Part shown: positions 6,739 through 57,036 of the stretch, piece after piece
How the letters are laid out: each line of letters opens with the position of its first letter
Numbering within the stretch: the stretch's first letter is position 1
NCBI RefSeq assembly: GCF_022267555.1
Contig: NZ_CP073586.1
Location: forward strand, 2,894,501-2,958,500
Reading direction: 5' to 3'
Source of the DNA: Proteiniphilum propionicum
Lineage (GTDB): Bacteria > Bacteroidota > Bacteroidia > Bacteroidales > Dysgonomonadaceae
Length of the DNA stretch: 64,000 bases
Made by a program: the position numbers and the translations under genes
Notes under the pieces: model-generated
Database searches by the model: none
Seen by the model: only the letters and a program-made list of their open reading frames with translations
Told to the model about the DNA's origin: nothing

Positions 6739-7821
6739 TTATTGAGCGCTTTCAGAAACAGGCTCTTTTGACTGGGTTTTCAATTGTGAAAAGTACATTG
6801 CGAATGAGCGATAAAGGAAGTGAGTCCATTTGCCGAACGGGACAATTATAAGCGCCCATTGTGCAAGCACTATGAGATGGATAAGATAAACCCACCTGAC
6901 TGACTCTGTGAGGTTAAGATCGATGAAAAGACGAACTAAAAAAGCGGTGATACCCATCAGTAGCAGCCAGGTGACAAAGAGCCAGTCTGATGGTTGCGAG
7001 AATTTGTTGAGTGTCCGGCTTTTTTTGATACGACTACCCACAAAATCGAAGGTGATTGCAAAGATCAGTAAGCTCTCAACATATCCCAGAATAATGAAAA
7101 ACAGATTGTATGTGGCAAACCAGTTAAGAAAAACAGTTGTGAAAAGCAGTGACAGATATGCAAACACCAGGATCATATGTTCAAACCACCTGAAGTGTGT
7201 ATTTTCCTCACAATCCTTGTATCGTTTCTGGGTGAACATATGGACAAACAACTCACCTGATGTTGAAAAGTACCGTTTCAGAGGTGTTCTTACTTTTGGT
7301 TTTACAATAGTGAAGTACCACATACGCAGCAGGTTGGGGACAAATATAACCAGAAAGACAGTGCTGATGGCAATAATTTCGAAACGATGTCCGTAATGAA
7401 GCATTTCCTCAAGGTTAAAGTCCCTTGAACAGGCAAAGAAAAGAGTACCTGCAAGAACAAGAATCAGAGCGGCAATGGTAGCAGGGAAGGATCGATAGAG
7501 AAGGCTGGAGAGCCCTGTCCAGTCGTATTTCGACGTTAACCACCTTCGTAGCGACATCATCAGTTCACCAGGATTTGCTGTTTGCGGGCAGCTATTGGTA
7601 CACTCGCCACAATAGTAGCACTCCCATGGTTTTAGTGATGATTTTATCTCATCCTCAATTCCCAGGGCGCTGAGGCGTATCATCTCACGGGGAAACGATT
7701 CTTCCGTGGAGGAAAGAGAGCAAACTGCCGTGCAGGTGCCACAGTTGTAACAAGCACTCATATTCACCGCACCATATTTCTTCAGCTCATCTTTAAACTT
7801 CGGATTAATTTTTGTCGCCAT
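6739..7821 (-). CDS. QmoC-like membrane subunit: HdrC ferredoxin domain fused to HdrE-type cytochrome b domain
   Basis: 360 residues. The N-terminal approximately 95 residues are an HdrC-like domain with two [4Fe-4S] motifs, CYNCGTCTAVC and CYYCGECTNSCP, separated by SFPREMIRLSALG. The rest contains about six hydrophobic segments with candidate heme-ligand histidines (RWFEHMILVF, VYLIHLIVLAQW, GKWTHFLYRS). This HdrC-HdrE fusion is the architecture of QmoC, which passes electrons between a menaquinone pool and soluble HdrA-type flavoproteins. It follows the winged-helix gene with no gap and is the last gene of the minus-strand cluster. No adenylylsulfate reductase is nearby, so the partner differs from that of classical Qmo. 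Confidence 0.82.
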   Translation of the reverse strand: MATKINPKFKDELKKYGAVNMSACYNCGTCTAVCSLSSTEESFPREMIRLSALGIEDEIKSSLKPWECYYCGECTNSCPQTANPGELMMSLRRWLTSKYDWTGLSSLLYRSFPATIAALILVLAGTLFFACSRDFNLEEMLHYGHRFEIIAISTVFLVIFVPNLLRMWYFTIVKPKVRTPLKRYFSTSGELFVHMFTQKRYKDCEENTHFRWFEHMILVFAYLSLLFTTVFLNWFATYNLFFIILGYVESLLIFAITFDFVGSRIKKSRTLNKFSQPSDWLFVTWLLLMGITAFLVRLFIDLNLTESVRWVYLIHLIVLAQWALIIVPFGKWTHFLYRSFAMYFSQLKTQSKEPVSESAQ

Positions 7822-8103
7822 TTATTTCACAAGTTTATAGGTATAATATTCATCCATATAATCTATCTCTCCAGTTGCAATAATTCCGTATTTAACCAGT
7901 GTCATCAGATAGAACGTGATCTCCGACTTAGGGATCCGAAGCTTCTCCGACAGCTGGGTGATAGTGAGATCTTCCTCTTTCAGGGCATCAGTAATCACCT
8001 TTTTAATGCGGTTATATTCCTTAAGTTGCTCCTTTGCCTTTTCTGGTATACCTTGTTTGTCCCTTAGGTATTTAGCTGTTTTTCCAATTTCGGTTTCCAT
8101 CAT
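7822..8103 (-). CDS. Small winged-helix protein in the Hdr/Qmo-like cluster
   Basis: 93 residues. The C-terminal half has a helix-turn-helix with wing (DLTITQLSEKLRIPKSEITFYLMTLVKYGII) as in MarR/ArsR-like winged-helix proteins; the N-terminal half is charged and helical. Its stop abuts the ATG of the QmoC-like gene, so they are co-translated. The 260-bp gap upstream separates this pair from the HdrA genes. It may be a local regulator or a structural protein that reuses a winged-helix fold; it has no cysteines that would suggest metal sensing. The function is not established. Confidence 0.6.
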   Translation of the reverse strand: MMETEIGKTAKYLRDKQGIPEKAKEQLKEYNRIKKVITDALKEEDLTITQLSEKLRIPKSEITFYLMTLVKYGIIATGEIDYMDEYYTYKLVK

Positions 8104-8363
8104 TTCGTATTTTTACCCTGTATAAGAAAGTAATGCTTCGTTAAAACTTCATTTATAATACTGACAGTCAATAATTTATGCCAGATCCCCAAAAAGTGCC
8201 ATACTCTATTGATATTCAGTGAACTATAAGAACTGTTTTAAAAAAATTACCGAAGTATTGAGAAAGTAAACTTGTTCTTTTATTTAAAAGTTTGGCAAAT
8301 ATTCTTTTAACATCTATATTGACAAATAATTATCTGGTTTATCCTAAAAATGCTAGTGTTGGG

Positions 8364-10088
8364 TTATACCAGAACGTCGATCATACTCATCATCTCCTTG
8401 CTGCTGTAACCTGTAAGGTCTATGGCATCAACCGGGCAGACAGGGGTACACATTCCGCATCCTTTGCAAACCGAAGCATTTACAATAGCAACCTCTCTAT
8501 TGTGAACCGCCTCTTTACTAATTGCGTCGAACGGACAGGCATTAAGGCATTTACTACACCAGGAACAGTTTTCTTGGTCGATTTTGGCGATAATCGGCTC
8601 AGTCTCCAGCGTTCCTTTGCTGATTAGAGAGTACGACTTGGTTGCAGCCGACAGGGCTGAGTTGACAGACTCGCTGATATTTTTTGGACCCTGACAGGTG
8701 CCGGCGATGGTAACTCCATCAATCACCGTCTCCACCGGGCGCAATTTCATATGCACCTCGTTATAAAATCCATCCCTGCCTTTTGGCAGCTTCAGCATGG
8801 AGCCTACTGACCGATCGGAACGGGGCACCATTCCAGTGACCAGTACCACCAGATCAGCTTCCACCTCAAGCTCTTTCCCTGCTGAAAGAATATCCTTTAC
8901 CGCAATAACCATCTTTTGCTTTTTGACGAAGATTTTGGGAAGAGACTCTTCGTTGAACTGCAGGTAGAGATCGCCCATCTGCAGCGATTCAGCATAAAGC
9001 AACTCCTGTTTCCCGTAGGTTCTTATACCCCGGTTAAGATGAATATTAACGATTCCATTAAATTTTTTTTTGGCTTCTATAGCAGTATGGATTGCCGAGG
9101 TGCAGCAGTAGCGCGAACAATAACTGTTTCCGCCATTGGCCTGGCGGCTTCCCACACAGTAAATATAGACCACATTACTGATTCTCATTCCTTTGTACTC
9201 CAATATCTTACCGGTTGAGCTATCCACCAGCTTTTTGAATTCAGGCAGTGTGATAACCCAGTCACTATTCCCGAAACCATATTCGCCATCTTTAGGTGAA
9301 TAGTGATCATACCCTGTTGCCACCACTATAGATCCAATCTTCATAACCATTATCTCTGACGGATCGCCCTCTTTCTGAGGCTTTTTTCGAATTCTGATCT
9401 CGAAATTTCCTATACTCCCTTTTGTAGAGATCACCTCTGCTCCGGTAAGGATAAATATATTCTCACGGTTCCGAATATCTCCGGCAATCCTTTCAGTCAG
9501 TTCGTACCCTTTTTCGTCTGTCATCGCGAGGCTGCCCCATTCTGCCGTGTGGCCTCCCAGCTGGCTCTCTTTTTCGATAAGCACCACATTGCTGTTTTTG
9601 TCAGCAAGAGATGCCGTCGCCTTCATGCCTGCAATACCTCCCCCAATGACTGCTATGGTTTTTTCAGCTTCAAACCAGTAGGGATACAACGGTTCGGCAT
9701 ATCTCGATTTAGCGATGGCTGCTTTTACCAGGTGAATGGCTTTTTCAGTAGCTCCTGTTTTATCATCGGAGTGAGCCCACGATGCCTGCTCACGGATGTT
9801 GGTATGCACATAGGTGTACTTGTTCAGTTCGCCCCGCTCGGTAACATTACGAAAGGTGGCCAGATGAAGCTTGGGCGAACAGGAAGCAACGATCACACCA
9901 TCGAGGTTATGCTCTTTAATGTCGTTGATCATTTCATTCTGATTACTGTCAGAGCAGGCAAACAAGGTTGTCCTGGCCAGTACCACGCCATCTTCATTTT
10001 CTACTGCCCGGCACACCTTTTCCACATCCACATAATCAGATATGTTGCCGCCGCAGTGGCATACGTAAACTCCTATTCTCTCTTTCAT
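8364..10088 (-). CDS. HdrA-type FAD/iron-sulfur oxidoreductase (QmoB-like, without MvhD domain)
   Basis: 574 residues of the heterodisulfide reductase subunit A family. It starts with GVYVCHCGGNI, has a TNIREQASWAHSD block, an FAD-binding GGGIAGMKATASLA with ESQLGGHTAEW, a cysteine-rich SRYCCTSAIHTAIEAK segment, and two C-terminal [4Fe-4S] ferredoxin motifs, CSWCSKCLNACPFDAI and CKGCGMCTPVCPVDAI. Family members pass or bifurcate electrons between ferredoxin-like clusters and FAD in the cytoplasm. Its start overlaps the stop of the second HdrA-type gene (ATGA at 10085-10088). In classical QmoB a similar module carries a fused MvhD domain; here that domain is a separate gene at 11431. Confidence 0.87.
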   Translation of the reverse strand: MKERIGVYVCHCGGNISDYVDVEKVCRAVENEDGVVLARTTLFACSDSNQNEMINDIKEHNLDGVIVASCSPKLHLATFRNVTERGELNKYTYVHTNIREQASWAHSDDKTGATEKAIHLVKAAIAKSRYAEPLYPYWFEAEKTIAVIGGGIAGMKATASLADKNSNVVLIEKESQLGGHTAEWGSLAMTDEKGYELTERIAGDIRNRENIFILTGAEVISTKGSIGNFEIRIRKKPQKEGDPSEIMVMKIGSIVVATGYDHYSPKDGEYGFGNSDWVITLPEFKKLVDSSTGKILEYKGMRISNVVYIYCVGSRQANGGNSYCSRYCCTSAIHTAIEAKKKFNGIVNIHLNRGIRTYGKQELLYAESLQMGDLYLQFNEESLPKIFVKKQKMVIAVKDILSAGKELEVEADLVVLVTGMVPRSDRSVGSMLKLPKGRDGFYNEVHMKLRPVETVIDGVTIAGTCQGPKNISESVNSALSAATKSYSLISKGTLETEPIIAKIDQENCSWCSKCLNACPFDAISKEAVHNREVAIVNASVCKGCGMCTPVCPVDAIDLTGYSSKEMMSMIDVLV

Positions 10089-11401
10089 TGTTGTTGAGGT
10101 TGCGATAAATAACTGATTGCTTCTGAGGATGCCGATCCGGCCGAAAGGATGGAGTCGGGGATATCCATCGGCCCTGAGGCTGTTCCGGCAACGAACACTC
10201 CGTCGATACTTGTTTTTGAAGGACTACCCATTAAATCTTTCTGAGCCACAAACCGGTGGAAATCGAGTTTCAGCGATCCGGCATCAAAGATATTTGAAAC
10301 AGCCGGGTTAGATTGAACCCCTACAGATAGAACCACCATATCGTGCTCGGCCTCGGAAACCACACCACTGCTTATATCTTCGTAGCGAAGGATAAGGTTT
10401 CCGTTCTCTTTCTCGGTAATCTTTCCTATTTTTCCCTTTATGAAATTGACTCCCATCCCTTTGGCTTGCTGGTAAAACTCTTCGAACCCTTTGCCGAATG
10501 ACCGGATATTGATGTAGTATATAGTTACATCAGCCATTGGTAATGCCCCCATGAGCAGTTGTGCCTGCTTAATGGAGTACATGCAGCATATCTGTGAACA
10601 GATGGGATTGCCCACAGTGTTGTCGCGTGAGCCTGTGCATAGCACGTAGGCAATCTTGTCGGGCACCTTGCCATCTCCAGGGCGCAGTATGGTGTTGTAG
10701 GGGCGGGTAGGAGCTATCTCTCGCTCCATCTGCATGGAAGTGATCACATTCTTGTATTGTCCGTATCCGTAACGGGGTATCTCTAGCGGGTCGAACAATC
10801 TGAATCCGGTTGCCAGTATCACTGTCTTCATTTTAAGTTCATACAACTCAGTCTCCATTGTGAAGTCGATGCAGTGTGTGGGGCACACTCTTTCGCAGGC
10901 ACCACAAAGTGTACAGTTCTCAATATCAATTACTGCCGCTTTGGGGTTTGCTATGCTGAAAGGTATAAAAGCTGCCTTTCGTCCTATCAGGCCGTACTGG
11001 TACTCATCAGTCACGTTTACGGGACAGGCCTTTTCGCATAGCTGGCAAGCGGTGCAGTCCGCCACATGGACATAACGCGGTTTTTTTGTGATTTCAGCGG
11101 TAAAATTGTTCTGGCCCCTCTTACTTACATGTGTAACCTCACTCTCGGTGAATATGGTAATGTTTTTGTGGCGCGCAATCTCGGATACCTTTGGTGTGGT
11201 AATGCATGCTGCACAGTCGAGCGTCGGGAACACCTTACTCAGCAATATCATCTTTCCTCCCAGCGAATGGTCCTTTTCTACCAATAGTACCTTATAGCCA
11301 GTATTGGCGAGGTTAAGCGCAGCCTCACCACCCGCGATACCGGCACCTATTACCAGCGCATCGTATTCAATTTTTATTCTCTCTTCCATCAGAAAAATCA
11401 A
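10085..11401 (-). CDS. QmoA-like HdrA-family flavoprotein
   Basis: 438 residues, shorter than a full HdrA and close to QmoA. It begins with a dinucleotide-binding motif (DALVIGAGIAGGEAALNLA) and LGGKMILLSKVFPTLDCAACIT, carries an internal pair of ferredoxin-type motifs, CTACQLCEKACPVNV and CTLCGACERVCPTHC, and then CSQICCMYSIKQAQ and a C-terminal VFVAGTASGPMDIPDS FAD-closing motif. The ATG at 11389 (MEERIKIEYD) is a plausible shorter start. It lies 29 bases after the MvhD-like gene and overlaps the following HdrA gene by four bases, so the two flavoproteins are probably made in equal amounts and form one complex. Confidence 0.87.
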   Translation of the reverse strand: MIFLMEERIKIEYDALVIGAGIAGGEAALNLANTGYKVLLVEKDHSLGGKMILLSKVFPTLDCAACITTPKVSEIARHKNITIFTESEVTHVSKRGQNNFTAEITKKPRYVHVADCTACQLCEKACPVNVTDEYQYGLIGRKAAFIPFSIANPKAAVIDIENCTLCGACERVCPTHCIDFTMETELYELKMKTVILATGFRLFDPLEIPRYGYGQYKNVITSMQMEREIAPTRPYNTILRPGDGKVPDKIAYVLCTGSRDNTVGNPICSQICCMYSIKQAQLLMGALPMADVTIYYINIRSFGKGFEEFYQQAKGMGVNFIKGKIGKITEKENGNLILRYEDISSGVVSEAEHDMVVLSVGVQSNPAVSNIFDAGSLKLDFHRFVAQKDLMGSPSKTSIDGVFVAGTASGPMDIPDSILSAGSASSEAISYLSQPQQQ

Positions 11402-11430
11402 ATTTCACTCATAATAATGAGCATTGTTTC

Positions 11431-11838
11431 TTATGCATTCCTGGTTTTCAGCAGGTAGTCGTTGAAGCTGCGTATCTGCTTCACAAAAGCTTCACTGCAG
11501 ACCGAGCAGATAGCTGCCATACGCAGGCGTGCCGGATCCAACTCTTTCTCTTTCATCTGCTCGTGTGTCATACTCACAATATTACCCGTTTTTTCAGTGC
11601 AACTTTCACCAAAGATACAGTCGCTCCCGTCGGCAGCAATGAAAACGCCGTCGAACCCTTTTTCATATGCATACATGATCCATGCCGGCTTGATACCGCC
11701 GGAACATGGTACTGTGAGGGTATAGACAGTAGGCGGGTAGTGTAATTTCAACAGTCCCGCCATATCAATTGCAGGATCGGAAATTTTCTCGGTTGAGAAG
11801 ACAAGTATTTTTGCACTTTTTTTCAATGCTCCATTCAT
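11431..11838 (-). CDS. MvhD-like hydrogenase iron-sulfur subunit domain protein
   Basis: 135 residues of the MvhD/FlpD family, which carries a [2Fe-2S] cluster and links an electron source to HdrA. The core is recognisable: YPPTVYTLTVPCSGGIKPAWIMYAYEKGFDGVFIAADGSDC. The usual N-terminal cysteine pair before this core is missing (ILVFSTEKIS instead), while two extra cysteines occur in ICSVCSEAF near the C terminus. Cysteines are at 45, 74, 80, 111 and 114. In QmoB this domain is fused to the HdrA module; here it is free-standing, between tusA and the QmoA-like gene. The altered cysteine layout may mean a different cluster or a different partner. Confidence 0.78.
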   Translation of the reverse strand: MNGALKKSAKILVFSTEKISDPAIDMAGLLKLHYPPTVYTLTVPCSGGIKPAWIMYAYEKGFDGVFIAADGSDCIFGESCTEKTGNIVSMTHEQMKEKELDPARLRMAAICSVCSEAFVKQIRSFNDYLLKTRNA

Positions 11839-11923
11839 AACAGAAACGGATTAATATATTTTACACTCCGGAAACGATTATGGTTCAGCTACAATATAGT
11901 GTGGTATTCAGGTAACGTTAGAA

Positions 11924-12175
11924 TTATTTTTTTCTCATGTAAACCTTGAAATACCCGTTCTCTTCTACACATCCAAGGTACTCATGTCCCTGTTTGTTGC
12001 ACCATTTGGGAATATCAGATTTTGTGCCTTCGTCGGCAGAAAGAATCTCCATCACATCACCACTGCTGATGGTGCCTATTGCTTTCTTTGCTTCAAGAAG
12101 TGGCCCGGGACAAGCTGTACCGCGTGCATCTACCGATTTTGCCACTGTTAATGTTCTCAATTCATCTGTTGTCAT
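11924..12175 (-). CDS. tusA: TusA-family sulfur carrier protein
   Basis: About 83 residues from the ATG at 12175. The TusA signature is intact: VDARGTACPGPLLEAKKAI with the persulfide-carrying Cys in a CPGP motif (Cys22), then SGDVMEILSADEG and a C-terminal WCNKQGHEYLG. TusA proteins carry sulfane sulfur between donors and acceptors in the cytoplasm. The frame extends upstream to 12247, but that part would encode a NTNNTNNTT stretch made by a 9-bp repeat, so I prefer the later start with the A-rich repeat as leader. Its place between dsrE2 and the Hdr genes points to sulfur delivery to the Qmo-like complex. Confidence 0.85.
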   Translation of the reverse strand: MTTDELRTLTVAKSVDARGTACPGPLLEAKKAIGTISSGDVMEILSADEGTKSDIPKWCNKQGHEYLGCVEENGYFKVYMRKK

Positions 12176-12180
12176 AGTTG

Positions 12181-12216
12181 TATTGTTTGTATTGTTTGTA
12201 TTGTTTGTAATGTTTG
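12181..12216 (-). repeat. 9-bp tandem repeat just before tusA
   Basis: Four tandem copies of a 9-bp unit (TATTGTTTG x3 then TAATGTTTG on the + strand; CAAACAATA on the coding strand) end five bases before the preferred tusA start. If transcribed it gives an A-rich unstructured leader; if translated from 12247 it gives an Asn/Thr repeat without changing the frame. Confidence 0.8.
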
Positions 12217-12286
12217 TTCCTCCCTGTTTAATTTCGGGAAGGAGCATGATAATTAGTAATTTAACTTTCGCATGAATAATTTACTG

Positions 12287-12317
12287 ATATATACAGCTGA
12301 CTATAAGCTGTATATAT
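12287..12317. promoter_or_regulatory. Perfect 12-bp inverted repeat between dsrE2 and tusA
   Basis: ATATATACAGCT (12287-12298) and AGCTGTATATAT (12306-12317) form a perfect 12-bp inverted repeat with a 7-nt loop in the gap between dsrE2 and tusA. There is no T tract on the minus strand after it, so a simple terminator is unlikely. It could be an RNA stem that stabilises or processes the operon mRNA, or a dyad operator. Confidence 0.6.
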
Positions 12318-12361
12318 GTTTTGTGGAATACCCACCAGATTAAACCATTGTTTGTTTATAA

Positions 12362-12928
12362 TTAGATGAACCATTGCATGCTGCTCTCTCCTGCATCGGC
12401 AACAAAGGTTGTGGCCCCAGCATACCGAAGATCGGGATAGTCTATCATCTCCTCCTTTTTAAATCCCATAAGGTTCATCGACATCTCGCAAACTGTGATC
12501 TCTACTCCCAGGGCAGCTGCCTCCTGAAACATTACATCGAGCGACATCACATTTTGCTTTTTCATTAGAATTTTAATCATTTTAGGCCCTATGCCACACA
12601 TGTTCATTTGTGAAAGTTTCAGCTTGTTGCGTCCCTTTGGCAACATCATTCCGAACATTTTCGAAACAATATCCTTCCCTTTTGCCTTCTTTTTCGGATC
12701 TCGCAGCGCTGAAAGCGCCCAGAAAGAGAAGAATAGTTTCACATGACTGTCCATTGCTGCCGCTGCAAGCGATATGATCATCGCCGCTAATATCTTGTCC
12801 ATATCTCCAGAAACGATAGCGATGGATAGCTGATCTTTGCGTGAATCCTCCAGCCGGCCGGTTCTTGATTTCAGGGTTTCCAGTTCCGCCAAAAACTTAT
12901 TCATGGTGATCTCTGTTGAGTTATCCAT
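12362..12928 (-). CDS. DsrE2 (DsrE/DsrF/DrsH-like) sulfurtransferase family protein
   Basis: 188 residues. The pattern is that of the DsrE2 branch: LSIAIVSGDMDKILAAMIISLAAAAMD near the N terminus with a hydrophobic helix, FFSFWALSALRDP, LKLSQMNMCGIGPKM, and ITVCEMSMNLMGFKKEEMID. Cys111 and Cys147 are the candidate persulfide residues, and the second lies in the conserved C-x-M-S-M region. DsrE2 proteins exchange sulfane sulfur with TusA in sulfur-metabolising bacteria. It is the first gene of the minus-strand cluster, and its 170-bp upstream region contains the Crp-type operator shared with the divergent regulator. Confidence 0.83.
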   Translation of the reverse strand: MDNSTEITMNKFLAELETLKSRTGRLEDSRKDQLSIAIVSGDMDKILAAMIISLAAAAMDSHVKLFFSFWALSALRDPKKKAKGKDIVSKMFGMMLPKGRNKLKLSQMNMCGIGPKMIKILMKKQNVMSLDVMFQEAAALGVEITVCEMSMNLMGFKKEEMIDYPDLRYAGATTFVADAGESSMQWFI

Positions 12929-13022
12929 AACATTTTAAAATTTAGTGATTTAAACTATGACAAATTACGGAAATATTTCTGAAAAAATAACAGAAACCAA
13001 GGTGTTGTATAATACAATTTTT

Positions 13023-13038
13023 TGTGATATTAATCACA
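13023..13038. promoter_or_regulatory. Crp/Fnr-type operator in the dsrE2-crp divergent region
   Basis: TGTGATATTAATCACA has perfect 5-bp arms TGTGA/TCACA separated by 6 bp, the classic Crp-family half-site arrangement. It is about 10 bp upstream of a candidate -7 element for the regulator gene (TATCTTCG, 13048-13055) and about 95 bp upstream of the dsrE2 start, so one site could control both directions. The most likely ligand is the adjacent Crp/Fnr protein. Confidence 0.75.
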
Positions 13039-13098
13039 TCATTTTACTATCTTCGCAGTGATATGCAGAGATTATTTTCACCTCATTAACTTTAAAAT

Positions 13099-13779
13099 AT
13101 GATTATGAGTGAGTGTCTGAATTGTGCTTGTGTGATGAGATCGATGAACAGGTTGAATAATTGCCAGGTGGAACAGCTGGAAAAGAACCATGCAGTGGTT
13201 AAATTCAAGAAAGGCGCCTCTATTATCAGGCAGGGAATGTTCTCAACTAACGTGGTATTCCTTCGTAATGGGCTGGCTAAGATGCATTTGAACGGACCTT
13301 ATCACGAGCAGATTGTGAGGGTGATAAAAGCGCCCACTTACCTGGGGCTGCCTACCACCTTTGGCGATAAGATTAATCAATACTCCATTACCGCTGTAAT
13401 TGATAGTGAAGTGTGTTTTATCGATATGAATGTTTTTTCGATGGTTCTTCGTGAGAACAGTGACTTTTCTACCCATATCATTCAGGAGCTAAGCAAAAGC
13501 GAACTGGAGACCTACCGGCGGTGTGCGAACCGTACGCAGAAGCAGGTGAGGGGGAATCTGGCAGATGTATTGCTCGATTTTGCCGACAATATATTCGGAA
13601 GCGACGAATATACGCTCCCTCTTTCACAGTCGGAGATTGGCAACTGGGTTGATGCCAGCCGCGAAAGCATCAACCGGCTTCTTTCGGAGTTTGTGTCGGA
13701 TAAAATTATTGACATGAAAGGGAAAAGAATACACATCCTGAATAAAGCTTCACTGCAGCTTATCAGTCAGTACGGATAA
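13099..13779 (+). CDS. Crp/Fnr family transcriptional regulator with N-terminal cysteine cluster
   Basis: 226 residues. A cyclic-nucleotide-binding-type jelly roll (FKKGASIIRQGMFSTNVVFLRNG) is followed by a long dimerisation helix and a helix-turn-helix (LPLSQSEIGNWVDASRESINRLLSEF). The N terminus has cysteines at 6, 9, 11 and 22, and Cys106 sits in SEVCFIDM, broadly where Fnr has its fourth ligand, so an oxygen- or nitrosative-stress-sensing Fe-S cluster is possible. A second ATG is two codons in. It is divergent from the dsrE2-hdr cluster and shares a palindromic operator with it, which makes it the likely regulator of that cluster and of itself. Confidence 0.87.
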   Translation: MIMSECLNCACVMRSMNRLNNCQVEQLEKNHAVVKFKKGASIIRQGMFSTNVVFLRNGLAKMHLNGPYHEQIVRVIKAPTYLGLPTTFGDKINQYSITAVIDSEVCFIDMNVFSMVLRENSDFSTHIIQELSKSELETYRRCANRTQKQVRGNLADVLLDFADNIFGSDEYTLPLSQSEIGNWVDASRESINRLLSEFVSDKIIDMKGKRIHILNKASLQLISQYG

Positions 13780-54801: not shown

Positions 54802-57036
54802 TTATAAATAATACCCGAGACTCAGGAAGGGGTGGAATTTACGTGAAAGGCCTGAATATCCGAACTCAACTCTAAGGGGGCCCACAATTGAAAGATAGGA
54901 GTAACCAAGGTTGACCCCAAAATATGATTTACCATCAAAAAGGTTGTAAACATGATTATTATGTACAGTATAGTTTACATTTGCATAGAGATAGTTATTC
55001 GGTTTGAAATTATAGTGCCCCATTATATCAGCAGAGAACACCATATTGTCTAAAATCTCCATTCCTGATGATCCCTGAAGTGAAATTTGATGTGGTAAAT
55101 AATGATCATCGAATCTGCCGCCGACAAAGTTACGGTACATTAGGGGAACGCTGTCGTTCATTATGTACCGTGATGTAACACGGGGTGTAATATAGATACC
55201 ATCAGCTAAATAAACAGGTTTGTAAAAATTCATCTCCAAAATGCTTAAAGGCGAATCATTATCAAGCTTCAGGAAGTTATCAGTGTTAACTGAATAACGA
55301 AACGAAAAGTACTGTCCCGATGAAGGGAAATAAGTGGTATTGAGATTATCATAAACTCCATCGAGCTGATAGTTTATATATAGCTTGTCTTTTATTCTTG
55401 TATAATTTTCATCTACAATACGCCCTAAGACATTGAAAAGGTGAAAATGCTCAAGCCGGGAACCAAGATGCAGCCTGAAATTGCCAAAATATAATTCAGA
55501 AAAATTTAGATCCAGGGAATTTCGGTTGACCGACATCTTATATTCAAGCTTGCCTCTTTCATATATACTCAGATCGTTTTTACTGATCCTGTAGTTGGCG
55601 CCAGCCTTATAGAAGATGCCACTGTTTATTGAATAGTCTGCCATAAGATAGGGATCGCGGCTAAGTCGTGCTGTAATATCAATCATTGAATTCAGCGATG
55701 TGCTTAAGCGAATTGTTGTATTGGCAAAAACAGCCGCCATATCATTGGTGTCGAAGTATGCACCCATATTGAGGGTATTTGATTCTTTAGCTTCGACAAA
55801 AAAAACAAGATCGAAAGGCTGATCCCCGTCGAGACGATAATAAACACGTGAAAAGAGCCCGCTGGCATATATCCGTGAGGTCATGCCATCTAAATCTTTC
55901 CGAGTTACTCTATTCTCTTTGACAGAGATCCAGCGTAATATCTGCTTTTCCTCTACAGGTGAAACACCTTCAATGCGTATATTATCGATTATAAGTGTAT
56001 CGATATGGATATAGGGATTTTTATTCTCCCTTTCAATTTTACTACTATCCTCCAATCCAAGTGACTCTTTTAAGGCAATCAGCTCATCCCATTTCTCCAT
56101 AGCTGCCTGTTCACCGCGAGAGATAATTGAGTCGATGGCAGGTCTTTGAAAATCCATGGACCCATATGGGTGGATACGTGGTAAAATCATAAGATCGGTA
56201 TCTTTTATGTTCTTCTGGAGTTTTTGCTGCCCGATAAAATTAAAGATGTTTTCTGTAACCTCTGTAATACTGCCACGGCTGTGTACTGATTTCTCATCTG
56301 ACGGCATAATTACACCAATTATAATATCGGCTCCCATACTCCTTGCTACATCAACCGGGAAATTATTGATCACACCTCCGTCAATCAATACCATGCTGTC
56401 CCTCTCTACCGGTGTAAAAACGCCCGGAATAGCCATACTTGCGCGCATGGCCTCGGGCAGAATTCCTTCCCTGAAAACAAACTCCTCACCAGTAAGCAAA
56501 TCAGCTGCAACACAACCGAAAGGGATTGGAAGAGAGTCGAAATCCATTTCATCCTGATAGCCGATAGTCATATTCAGAAAAAGGCTGTATAGATTTTGCC
56601 CTGTAAAAACACCCTGTGGAAGGCTCACCTTGCTGCTTCTTTCTTTAAGTTTTAGCCTGTAGGGTAGGGATACGATATATTTTTTTTGATGATTCCTCTG
56701 AGATGCAGACAGGTTCTCACGGTAAATATTGTCGCGCATAAGATAGCTCCAATCCTGAATCTGGATAAGTGAATCAATCATATTTGCACTGTAGCCTGCT
56801 GCGTATAGTCCTCCCACTACAGCCCCCATACTGGTACCGGCAATATAGTCGATGGGAATACCGGCATTCTCCAACACCTTTAATGCGCCCACATGTGAAA
56901 ATCCTTTTGCCGATCCGCCACTTAGCACCACTCCCACCTTTTTGCGTTGCTGCTCCTGTTTGCGTTGCTGCTCCTGTCCCATAGCGGCAAAAGCAAAACA
57001 ACCGATGATCATCAATATTGTAGTCAGTTTTTTCAT
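54802..57036 (-). CDS. Patatin-like phospholipase with POTRA and Omp85-type barrel (PlpD-like)
   Basis: 744 residues. A signal peptide (1 to about 20) is followed by a short QEQQRK duplication (encoded by an 18-bp direct repeat near 56940-56977). The patatin domain has oxyanion loop SGGSAKGFSHVG (39-50), the nucleophile in GTSMG (Ser69) and the catalytic Asp in LIDGG (Asp219). A POTRA-like domain (about 350-430; IDNIRIEGVSPVEEKQILRWI) and a 16-strand Omp85-type barrel ending in GLSRKFHPFLSLGYYL follow. The protein is the single-chain type V-d secretion architecture, with the lipase domain exported through or anchored by its own barrel. Confidence 0.93.
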   Translation of the reverse strand: MKKLTTILMIIGCFAFAAMGQEQQRKQEQQRKKVGVVLSGGSAKGFSHVGALKVLENAGIPIDYIAGTSMGAVVGGLYAAGYSANMIDSLIQIQDWSYLMRDNIYRENLSASQRNHQKKYIVSLPYRLKLKERSSKVSLPQGVFTGQNLYSLFLNMTIGYQDEMDFDSLPIPFGCVAADLLTGEEFVFREGILPEAMRASMAIPGVFTPVERDSMVLIDGGVINNFPVDVARSMGADIIIGVIMPSDEKSVHSRGSITEVTENIFNFIGQQKLQKNIKDTDLMILPRIHPYGSMDFQRPAIDSIISRGEQAAMEKWDELIALKESLGLEDSSKIERENKNPYIHIDTLIIDNIRIEGVSPVEEKQILRWISVKENRVTRKDLDGMTSRIYASGLFSRVYYRLDGDQPFDLVFFVEAKESNTLNMGAYFDTNDMAAVFANTTIRLSTSLNSMIDITARLSRDPYLMADYSINSGIFYKAGANYRISKNDLSIYERGKLEYKMSVNRNSLDLNFSELYFGNFRLHLGSRLEHFHLFNVLGRIVDENYTRIKDKLYINYQLDGVYDNLNTTYFPSSGQYFSFRYSVNTDNFLKLDNDSPLSILEMNFYKPVYLADGIYITPRVTSRYIMNDSVPLMYRNFVGGRFDDHYLPHQISLQGSSGMEILDNMVFSADIMGHYNFKPNNYLYANVNYTVHNNHVYNLFDGKSYFGVNLGYSYLSIVGPLRVEFGYSGLSRKFHPFLSLGYYL

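Follow-up and report, generated by a model that had tools for sequence, protein, structure and literature searches.

Background

A type II form of the Qmo complex has been reported, its role being unclear (PMC10504309). HdrL of Desulfobacterium autotrophicum, which consists of HdrA and a glutamate-synthase-type NADH module, is encoded next to MvhD (PMC2702500), and HdrL-MvhD has been proposed to be connected with sulfur oxidation (PMC12142623). DsrE2 is described as a poor marker of disproportionation (PMC12998232), and Petrimonas sulfuriphila reduces elemental sulfur (S0) to H2S (PMC9695182). No gene set for elemental-sulfur reduction by fermentative Bacteroidales such as Petrimonas, and no TusA-MvhD-HdrA-QmoC set in Bacteroidota, was found described in the open-licence literature. 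Here such a set is analysed from a window of 64,000 nucleotides (the whole stretch of DNA under study) of Proteiniphilum propionicum, the genome of which is a single contig of 3.9 Mb. Positions 6739-13779 of the window comprise seven genes on the minus strand and a divergent Crp/Fnr gene on the plus strand, according to the list of open reading frames (ORFs) and family searches.

Judged from its sequence, this cluster has a little better than an even chance of encoding a membrane-anchored oxidoreductase of the Qmo/Hdr type that acts on TusA persulfide, most likely reducing the persulfide to sulfide.

Conservation of the gene set

When 295 genomes of the order were searched with QmoC, 37 proved to have a close ortholog, at E 2.1e-134 or better; by a hand count from the listing, they belong to 29 family-level groups. 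On the contigs fetched from the 36 relatives among these 37, tusA is present in 30, and the contig ends first in the other six. A GTDB contig scan by QmoC provided a second set, of which the best 80 loci among the matches listed were retained; their named hosts include Seramator thermalis, Petrimonas sp. IBARAKI, Proteiniphilum and Paludibacter. The two sets were pooled as 116 loci, reduced to 107 by removing nine with duplicate QmoC, and then to 75 by removing 32 that were too short upstream, so that gene order was counted in loci with at least 7.5 kb upstream of QmoC. Four loci were excluded from the counts of order, co-variation, intergenic regions and HdrA length: two QmoC-type operons that have no tusA (L098 and L099), the remote L100, and L101, a partial match.

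TusA, MvhD, HdrA1, HdrA2 and QmoC are encoded in the same order on one strand in 75 of the 75 distinct loci, which were chosen by QmoC similarity, and a gene of the DsrE family stands ahead of TusA in every one of them. The gene set is a real conserved system, as the earlier note supposed. The DsrE-family protein is of the DsrE2 type in 66 loci, four of which have a second type as well; in the other nine the second type, a protein of about 140 amino acids, is the sole one. The divergent crp gene is present in 66 of the 75 loci, and a winged helix, free or fused, is detectable in 71.

The earlier note had counted conservation of dsrE2 apart from the hdr genes as evidence against its own reading, and for the most part this was not found. 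The close DsrE2 subfamily (36 matches, E 4.5e-54 or better, with the limit placed where the list shows a gap) is found in 35 of the 295 genomes, all 35 of which have a QmoC-type match, and 27 of the 36 copies share a contig with such a match; the next DsrE2 match below the limit is that of G653 (E 1.4e-40), where the QmoC match is weak. The exception is one lone Crp-DsrE2 pair, considered below.

Related operons, trees and co-variation

Three kinds of Qmo-like operon occur in the order: a sulfur type, to which the window belongs, a hydrogenase type and an Apr type. The hydrogenase type (L191, L193, L194, L195 and L200) has HdrA1-, QmoC-, HdrA2- and MvhD-like genes together with hydrogenase-type ORFs, of which only those of L191 were scanned and matched Vhu-type models below the cut-offs; from their sequence these operons are likely to encode an H2-to-quinone complex. 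MvhD thus has hydrogenase-type genes for neighbours in the sister operons, whereas in the sulfur type it has TusA and DsrE. The Apr type has aprA with QmoA-, QmoB- and QmoC-like genes (L197 by scan, L198 by sequence and its AprA match). AprA and a QmoC-type match share a contig in L197 and L198, and also in G567, G401 and G545, with no TIGR00339 Sat or DsrA over the cut-off.

In a tree of HdrA1 with 47 rows, a branch with support of 100/99 sets off the 38 of the sulfur type from the hydrogenase-linked and AprAB-linked relatives; among the 38 is L100, a long branch whose place is unsure according to the program's warning. The sulfur type requires four changes in the tree of QmoC, which has 48 rows, and supported branches force at least three of them. 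The two apr-linked rows form separate, distant branches for QmoC and for QmoA alike. From the single HdrA1 clade and the repeated changes of QmoC type, the core looks to be of single origin, with a membrane anchor that was exchanged several times, yet always for another QmoC-type protein.

Distances between proteins were correlated over the 62 distinct loci, the window included, that have all seven genes. TusA, MvhD, HdrA1 and HdrA2 correlate with one another at 0.78-0.92 (TusA with the other three at 0.78-0.82), whereas TusA correlates with Crp, DsrE2 and QmoC at 0.25-0.26; Crp and DsrE2 reach 0.73, and the remaining pairings 0.20-0.52. Between Petrimonas sp. IBARAKI and the window, identity is 85% for DsrE2, 68% for QmoC, 66% for TusA, 53% for MvhD, 62% for HdrA1 and 48% for HdrA2. 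On these distances the TusA-MvhD-HdrA1-HdrA2 block is exchanged jointly as a cassette, which is new here.

Subunits

An alignment of 87 MvhD-like sequences, each sharing at least 45% identity with that of the window, shows no variation at cysteines 45, 74, 80, 111 and 114. The structural model of the MvhD-like subunit (predicted local distance difference test score, pLDDT, 77.6; residues 19-30 poor) matches 5odc_D with a Foldseek E of 6.4e-11 and a template modelling score of 0.76. Compared with 5odc_D it lacks the N-terminal CC..C, and its Cys80, Cys111 and Cys114 have no counterpart there; by this alignment the cysteine set is altered relative to the solved MvhD, which is also new here. A remote homolog in L100, 32% identical, retains only the pair Cys111/Cys114. 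Because this CxxC pair is kept even there, it is the leading candidate for the working site.

HdrA1 of the window has 438 amino acids. In 21 loci, and also in L183-L186, HdrA1 exceeds 800 amino acids, and in both enlarged examples examined by Pfam (L093 and L124) the addition is a Fer4_20 domain with a GltD-type FAD/NAD(P) module. This enlargement of HdrA1 by a GltD-type NAD(P) module, checked in those two loci, is new here, and the module makes NAD(P)H a likely partner in these relatives. HdrA2 has at least 650 amino acids in 21 of the 21 loci with enlarged HdrA1 versus five of the 76 without (two of the five look contig-cut in HdrA1, and the length counts include some duplicate loci); where the extra length was read (L093, L124 and L131), it is a C-terminal winged helix. 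The HdrA2 of the window, with 574 amino acids, lacks a ferredoxin-like insert of about 70 amino acids that is seen in five of 14 aligned relatives; lengths suggest the insert in further relatives.

The free winged-helix protein of the window is well modelled (pLDDT 88.8), and its best fold matches are of the MarR/ArsR type, none with E below 0.001. A role as a DNA-binding regulator was discarded on this account and on account of the fusion to HdrA2. Since HdrA2 of some relatives ends in a fused winged helix, the protein is probably a structural subunit.

The QmoC-like subunit has two CxxCxxCxxxC motifs and conserved histidines at 145, 215, 315 and 334; it scores 141.8 bits against an NCBIfam cut-off of 300, versus 350.8 for the apr-linked control L197. 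The DsrE2-like protein has one invariant cysteine, Cys147 (alignment of 70), and TusA has a CPGP motif with an invariant Cys46 (alignment of 85; numbering of the 107-codon ORF). An internal Met25 of this ORF, at about position 12175, is conserved as the start in orthologs. TusA matches PF01206 and reaches 46.5 of the 78 bits required by the NCBIfam TusA equivalog.

Regulator and candidate operator

Cys6, Cys9 and Cys106 of the Crp/Fnr-family regulator are invariant in 70 aligned sequences, in which respect it may resemble cluster sensors of the Fnr type. The palindrome GTGA-N6-TCAC is present in 35 of 62 crp/dsrE intergenic regions, including that of the window, versus 0.18% of mononucleotide shuffles; the pattern was chosen after the site in the window had been seen, and the flanking starts are those of the longest ORFs. 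By this comparison, a conserved palindrome between crp and dsrE is new here. Throughout the genome, TGTGAN6TCACA has three sites, that of the window among them, and a reversed control pattern two, so that the number alone is uninformative. The other two sites both fall inside ORFs and were rejected as a regulon.

Sulfur and quinone genes

Profile searches were made for AprA, DsrA, Sat and the CCG domain of HdrB, the first three in 39 genomes (the 37 with close QmoC orthologs, and G517 and G673 as controls). AprA (TIGR02061) had no match in the genome of the window. Some match was found in 19 of the 39 genomes, over the cut-off in five: the two controls and G567, G545 and G401, each of which has a second QmoC-type match, 26-31% identical, on the aprA contig. 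AprA is thus not over the cut-off in 34 of the 37 cluster genomes. DsrA had no match in the genome of the window and was over the cut-off in none of the 39, a search without a true positive control; one sub-threshold match was found, in G457. Sat (TIGR00339) was found in none of the 39, a weak test, since the AprA-positive genomes are among them. The CCG search gave one match in the genome of the window (E 2.9e-4, 22.7 bits versus a cut-off of 20.6), in a frame of 962 amino acids, and a Pfam scan of the cluster genes found no CCG-type HdrB. The earlier description of the organism as lacking AprAB and HdrB therefore stands for AprA and is qualified for HdrB by this one weak match; aprA and sat elsewhere in the genome, which would have suggested a plain Qmo, were not found, within the weakness of the Sat search.

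MenD is present in the genome of the window (E 2.3e-108). In ten genomes checked for quinone routes, MenD is over the cut-off in four and MqnC in three, and MqnC of G615 comes close (407.5 of 428.1 bits). The remaining two, G621 and G417, have neither over or near the cut-off, and menaquinone was accordingly dropped as a universal partner.

Sulfur-related neighbours

PF04143 sulfur transporters, one with a rhodanese domain, are found near the cluster in L188, L089 and L079. A DsrC, a CCG-domain protein and an aminotransferase class V protein are encoded directly upstream of the dsrE2-tusA-hdr cluster in L184 (11675-15264, by Pfam), and ORFs similar to these are present by sequence in L185. In L100, which comes from a different class of the phylum, the order is TusA-MvhD-HdrA1-HdrA2-winged helix-QmoC, and a DsrE-family gene follows. 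A fusion protein of 813 amino acids that combines a pyridine-nucleotide oxidoreductase, rhodanese, TusA and DsrE2 is encoded at 1147-3588 of L199; its genome, G525, is of the same family and has a weak QmoC match (E 2.9e-7). We take this fusion to have the architecture of persulfide reductases. The cluster and the flavoprotein-DsrE2 fusion had been considered as mutually exclusive, an idea given up on finding both matches in at least G637 and G486. The cluster is also present in a Petrimonas genome (L124).

Proposed function

We infer a physical complex, its sulfur substrate, the reducing direction, a link to quinone, binding by the regulator, and confurcation or bifurcation. The DsrE-family protein would load sulfane sulfur from polysulfide or S0 onto TusA, which would dock on the modified MvhD-HdrA1-HdrA2 core, and the core would reduce the TusA persulfide to sulfide. 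Two sources would supply the electrons: quinol, by way of the QmoC-like subunit, and a cytoplasmic donor of low potential, which may be NAD(P)H where HdrA1 has the GltD-type module and possibly ferredoxin in the window. Control of the operon probably lies with the divergent Crp/Fnr protein, acting at the TGTGA-N6-TCACA site. In favour of this reading are the constant gene order, the spread of the close QmoC orthologs over 29 families, the joint exchange of TusA with MvhD, HdrA1 and HdrA2, an anchor that was replaced yet never lost, the presence of TusA and DsrE where sister operons have hydrogenase-type genes, the sulfur-related neighbours in relatives, the fusion of L199, and the cluster of a Petrimonas genome taken with S0 reduction by P. 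sulfuriphila.

The standard potential of S0/sulfide is near -270 mV, that of menaquinone near -75 mV, that of NADH -320 mV and that of ferredoxin near -450 mV or below. On these values quinol by itself would be too weak, so that sulfur reduction by the complex should call for a further donor of low potential, and confurcation would suit such a two-donor reaction. A more specific proposal is only tentative: a new class of energy-coupled sulfur reductase for which TusA persulfide is the substrate, Cys111/Cys114 of MvhD are sulfur-active, and HdrA1 and HdrA2 confurcate electrons of quinol with those of NAD(P)H or ferredoxin. If true, this would be an Hdr enzyme without HdrB in which confurcation drives an otherwise uphill reduction. 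The gene set as a whole offers one testable answer both for S0 reduction in fermentative Bacteroidales and for the role of type II Qmo. If that answer is correct, an Hdr-type enzyme has a sulfur-carrier protein for its substrate, and many fermenters of sediments, sludge and reservoirs could form sulfide by this means.

Several observations weigh against TusA-persulfide reduction. The loci were picked by QmoC similarity, so that the counts show linkage given QmoC and not the frequency of the set. Genes for DsrE, TusA, rhodanese and YeeE-type proteins are typical of sulfur oxidation too. The Petrimonas species that reduces S0 differs from the Petrimonas strain whose genome carries the cluster, and two cluster genomes, as stated above, show neither MenD nor MqnC. 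The HdrA1 of the window has no NAD(P)H/GltD module, which makes the low-potential donor there a guess, and 27 of the 62 intergenic regions are without the palindrome. The exchanged block is contiguous, so that recombination alone could give the co-variation. In a set of 32 loci, from which a coverage filter had dropped all those with the NAD(P) module (the 62 loci come from a looser filter), every pairing is higher, TusA correlating at 0.85 with DsrE2 and at 0.80 with MvhD. Finally, the lone Crp-DsrE2 pair, in L201 of one genome, has no hdr genes, which means that DsrE2 is separable from them.

The main rival, which we consider unlikely, is the same complex in reverse, oxidising TusA-bound sulfane sulfur with transfer of electrons to quinone or NAD(P)+ in the manner of sHdr or rDsr. 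The DsrE-TusA-Hdr sets of sulfur oxidisers favour it, as do AprA over the cut-off in three of the 37 cluster genomes, the DsrC and CCG-domain protein beside the cluster in L184, and the placement of YeeE/YedE with TusA in a sulfur-oxidising branch (PMC12142623, in part). It is opposed by the missing CCG-type HdrB of the cluster and the single weak match in the genome, by DsrA, which is over the cut-off in none of the 37 genomes, by AprA, which is not over it in 34, and by the description of the family of the nearest relatives as fermentative (PMC9695182, in part). Rather less probable is a non-respiratory system that handles persulfide or relays sulfur for detoxification or biosynthesis, its Hdr part keeping the carriers reduced. 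The 813-residue fusion of L199, the aminotransferase class V gene (cysteine desulfurase-type) adjoining the cluster in L184 and, by sequence, in L185, and the two genomes that show no menaquinone route would agree with a relay; a QmoC-type anchor retained even when swapped for that of another lineage, and the patchy distribution of the set (37 of 295 genomes), would not.

The cluster could also be two neighbouring units that serve separate pathways, Crp-DsrE2 for a sulfane-sulfur response and TusA-MvhD-HdrA-QmoC for electron transfer. The 62 loci, in which Crp and DsrE2 follow each other and correlate at only 0.20-0.26 with TusA, MvhD, HdrA1 and HdrA2, point that way, as does the pair in L201; in the 32 loci without the NAD(P) module, however, DsrE2 correlates with these four at 0.73-0.85, which would leave cassette exchange alone as the cause of its separation from the TusA block. 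The constant DsrE-family gene before TusA and the QmoC-type match in every genome with the DsrE2 subfamily likewise oppose two units, and we regard them as improbable. A dedicated Qmo complex for adenylylsulfate reductase, which the joint presence of QmoA-, HdrA- and QmoC-like subunits might suggest, is highly improbable overall and is refuted for the genome of the window by the absence of AprA. Plain Qmo for AprAB was ruled out by that absence, by the low QmoC score and by the distant apr-linked branches, two rows each for QmoC and QmoA; the Sat result points the same way as a weak test. TusA-persulfide reduction remains the reading that we favour.

Organisation of the locus

The genes named in the earlier note are present in the place, strand and order it gave, with Crp/Fnr divergent (Table 1). 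The families assigned there are right, and two of the names need qualification: the DsrE2 protein is only DsrE2-like, with 55 bits against the cut-off of 210 for the NCBIfam equivalog NF047629 though it matches PF13686, and MvhD is divergent. The hdrA1 and hdrA2 genes overlap by four bases, and the winged-helix gene directly abuts qmoC. All eight genes are 97-100% identical to those of a metagenome-assembled genome of Fermentimonas (L102).

Table 1. Features of the sulfur-type Qmo-like locus, in window coordinates
Feature	Position	Strand	Support
Crp/Fnr-family regulator, divergent	13099..13779	+	PF13545 E 7.1e-14, PF00027 E 2.3e-11
Palindrome TGTGATATTAATCACA, candidate operator, crp/dsrE2 intergenic	13023..13038	.	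sequence
DsrE2-like sulfur transferase	12362..12928	-	PF13686 E 5.5e-42
TusA sulfur carrier	11924..12175 (conserved start; ORF 11924-12247)	-	PF01206 E 2.4e-23
MvhD-like subunit	11431..11838	-	PF02662 E 8.7e-26, 90.8 bits, cut-off 22.3
HdrA1, QmoA-like flavoprotein, two 4Fe-4S motifs	10085..11401 (ATG at 11389)	-	NF040770 E 1.3e-142
HdrA2, HdrA-type flavoprotein, C-terminal 2x4Fe-4S	8364..10088	-	NF040770 E 8.9e-142
Small winged-helix protein	7822..8103	-	PF01022 E 2.6e-5
QmoC-like membrane subunit (HdrC + HdrE)	6739..7821	-	NF038018 (NCBIfam qmoC) E 3.7e-41, 141.8 bits

An AT-rich gap of 260 bases separates hdrA2 from the winged-helix gene (8104-8363); it is shared with the Fermentimonas genome, measures about seven bases in Seramator, and might be a promoter site. 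Elsewhere in the window, positions 54802-57036 encode a patatin-type phospholipase of 744 amino acids fused to an Omp85-type beta-barrel.

Comparison with known systems

Like the sHdr systems, which have DsrE and TusA beside HdrA-type genes, the window combines sulfur carriers with Hdr subunits; its cluster differs in having no HdrB and a membrane anchor instead. In common with type I QmoABC of sulfate reducers and green sulfur bacteria, it has a pair of HdrA-type flavoproteins, an MvhD module and a membrane subunit of the HdrC-HdrE kind; QmoA-, QmoB- and QmoC-type modules are all present, as HdrA1, as HdrA2 with MvhD, and as the QmoC-like protein. It differs from type I in the absence of AprA from the genome, in a QmoC below the family cut-off, in an MvhD that forms a protein of its own and differs in its cysteines, and in the presence of TusA, DsrE and a winged helix in the operon. 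Type II QmoABC is the closest published description, the fit being judged by description only (PMC10504309, in part); no TusA or Bacteroidota link is named in the portion available, and 'bacteroid' does not occur in the main text. HdrA1 is far from the two apr-linked QmoA with which it was compared in the tree.

HdrL resembles the enlarged HdrA1 of the relatives, whereas HdrA1 of the window is without the module; the HdrL loci described have Dsr genes or other partners linked to them, and TusA does not occur in the portion of the source available (PMC2702500). The fusions of pyridine-nucleotide oxidoreductase, rhodanese, TusA and DsrE2 couple DsrE2 and TusA to a flavoprotein, as the window does, but in the single protein of L199, which has neither an Hdr domain nor a membrane subunit. 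MvhAGD-HdrABC and the hydrogenase-linked Qmo-like operons (L191, L193-L195 and L200) have HdrA, MvhD and QmoC-like modules in common with the window; hydrogenase-type genes accompany these modules there and TusA and DsrE here, and the MvhD proteins of the two kinds of operon are only 24-30% identical.

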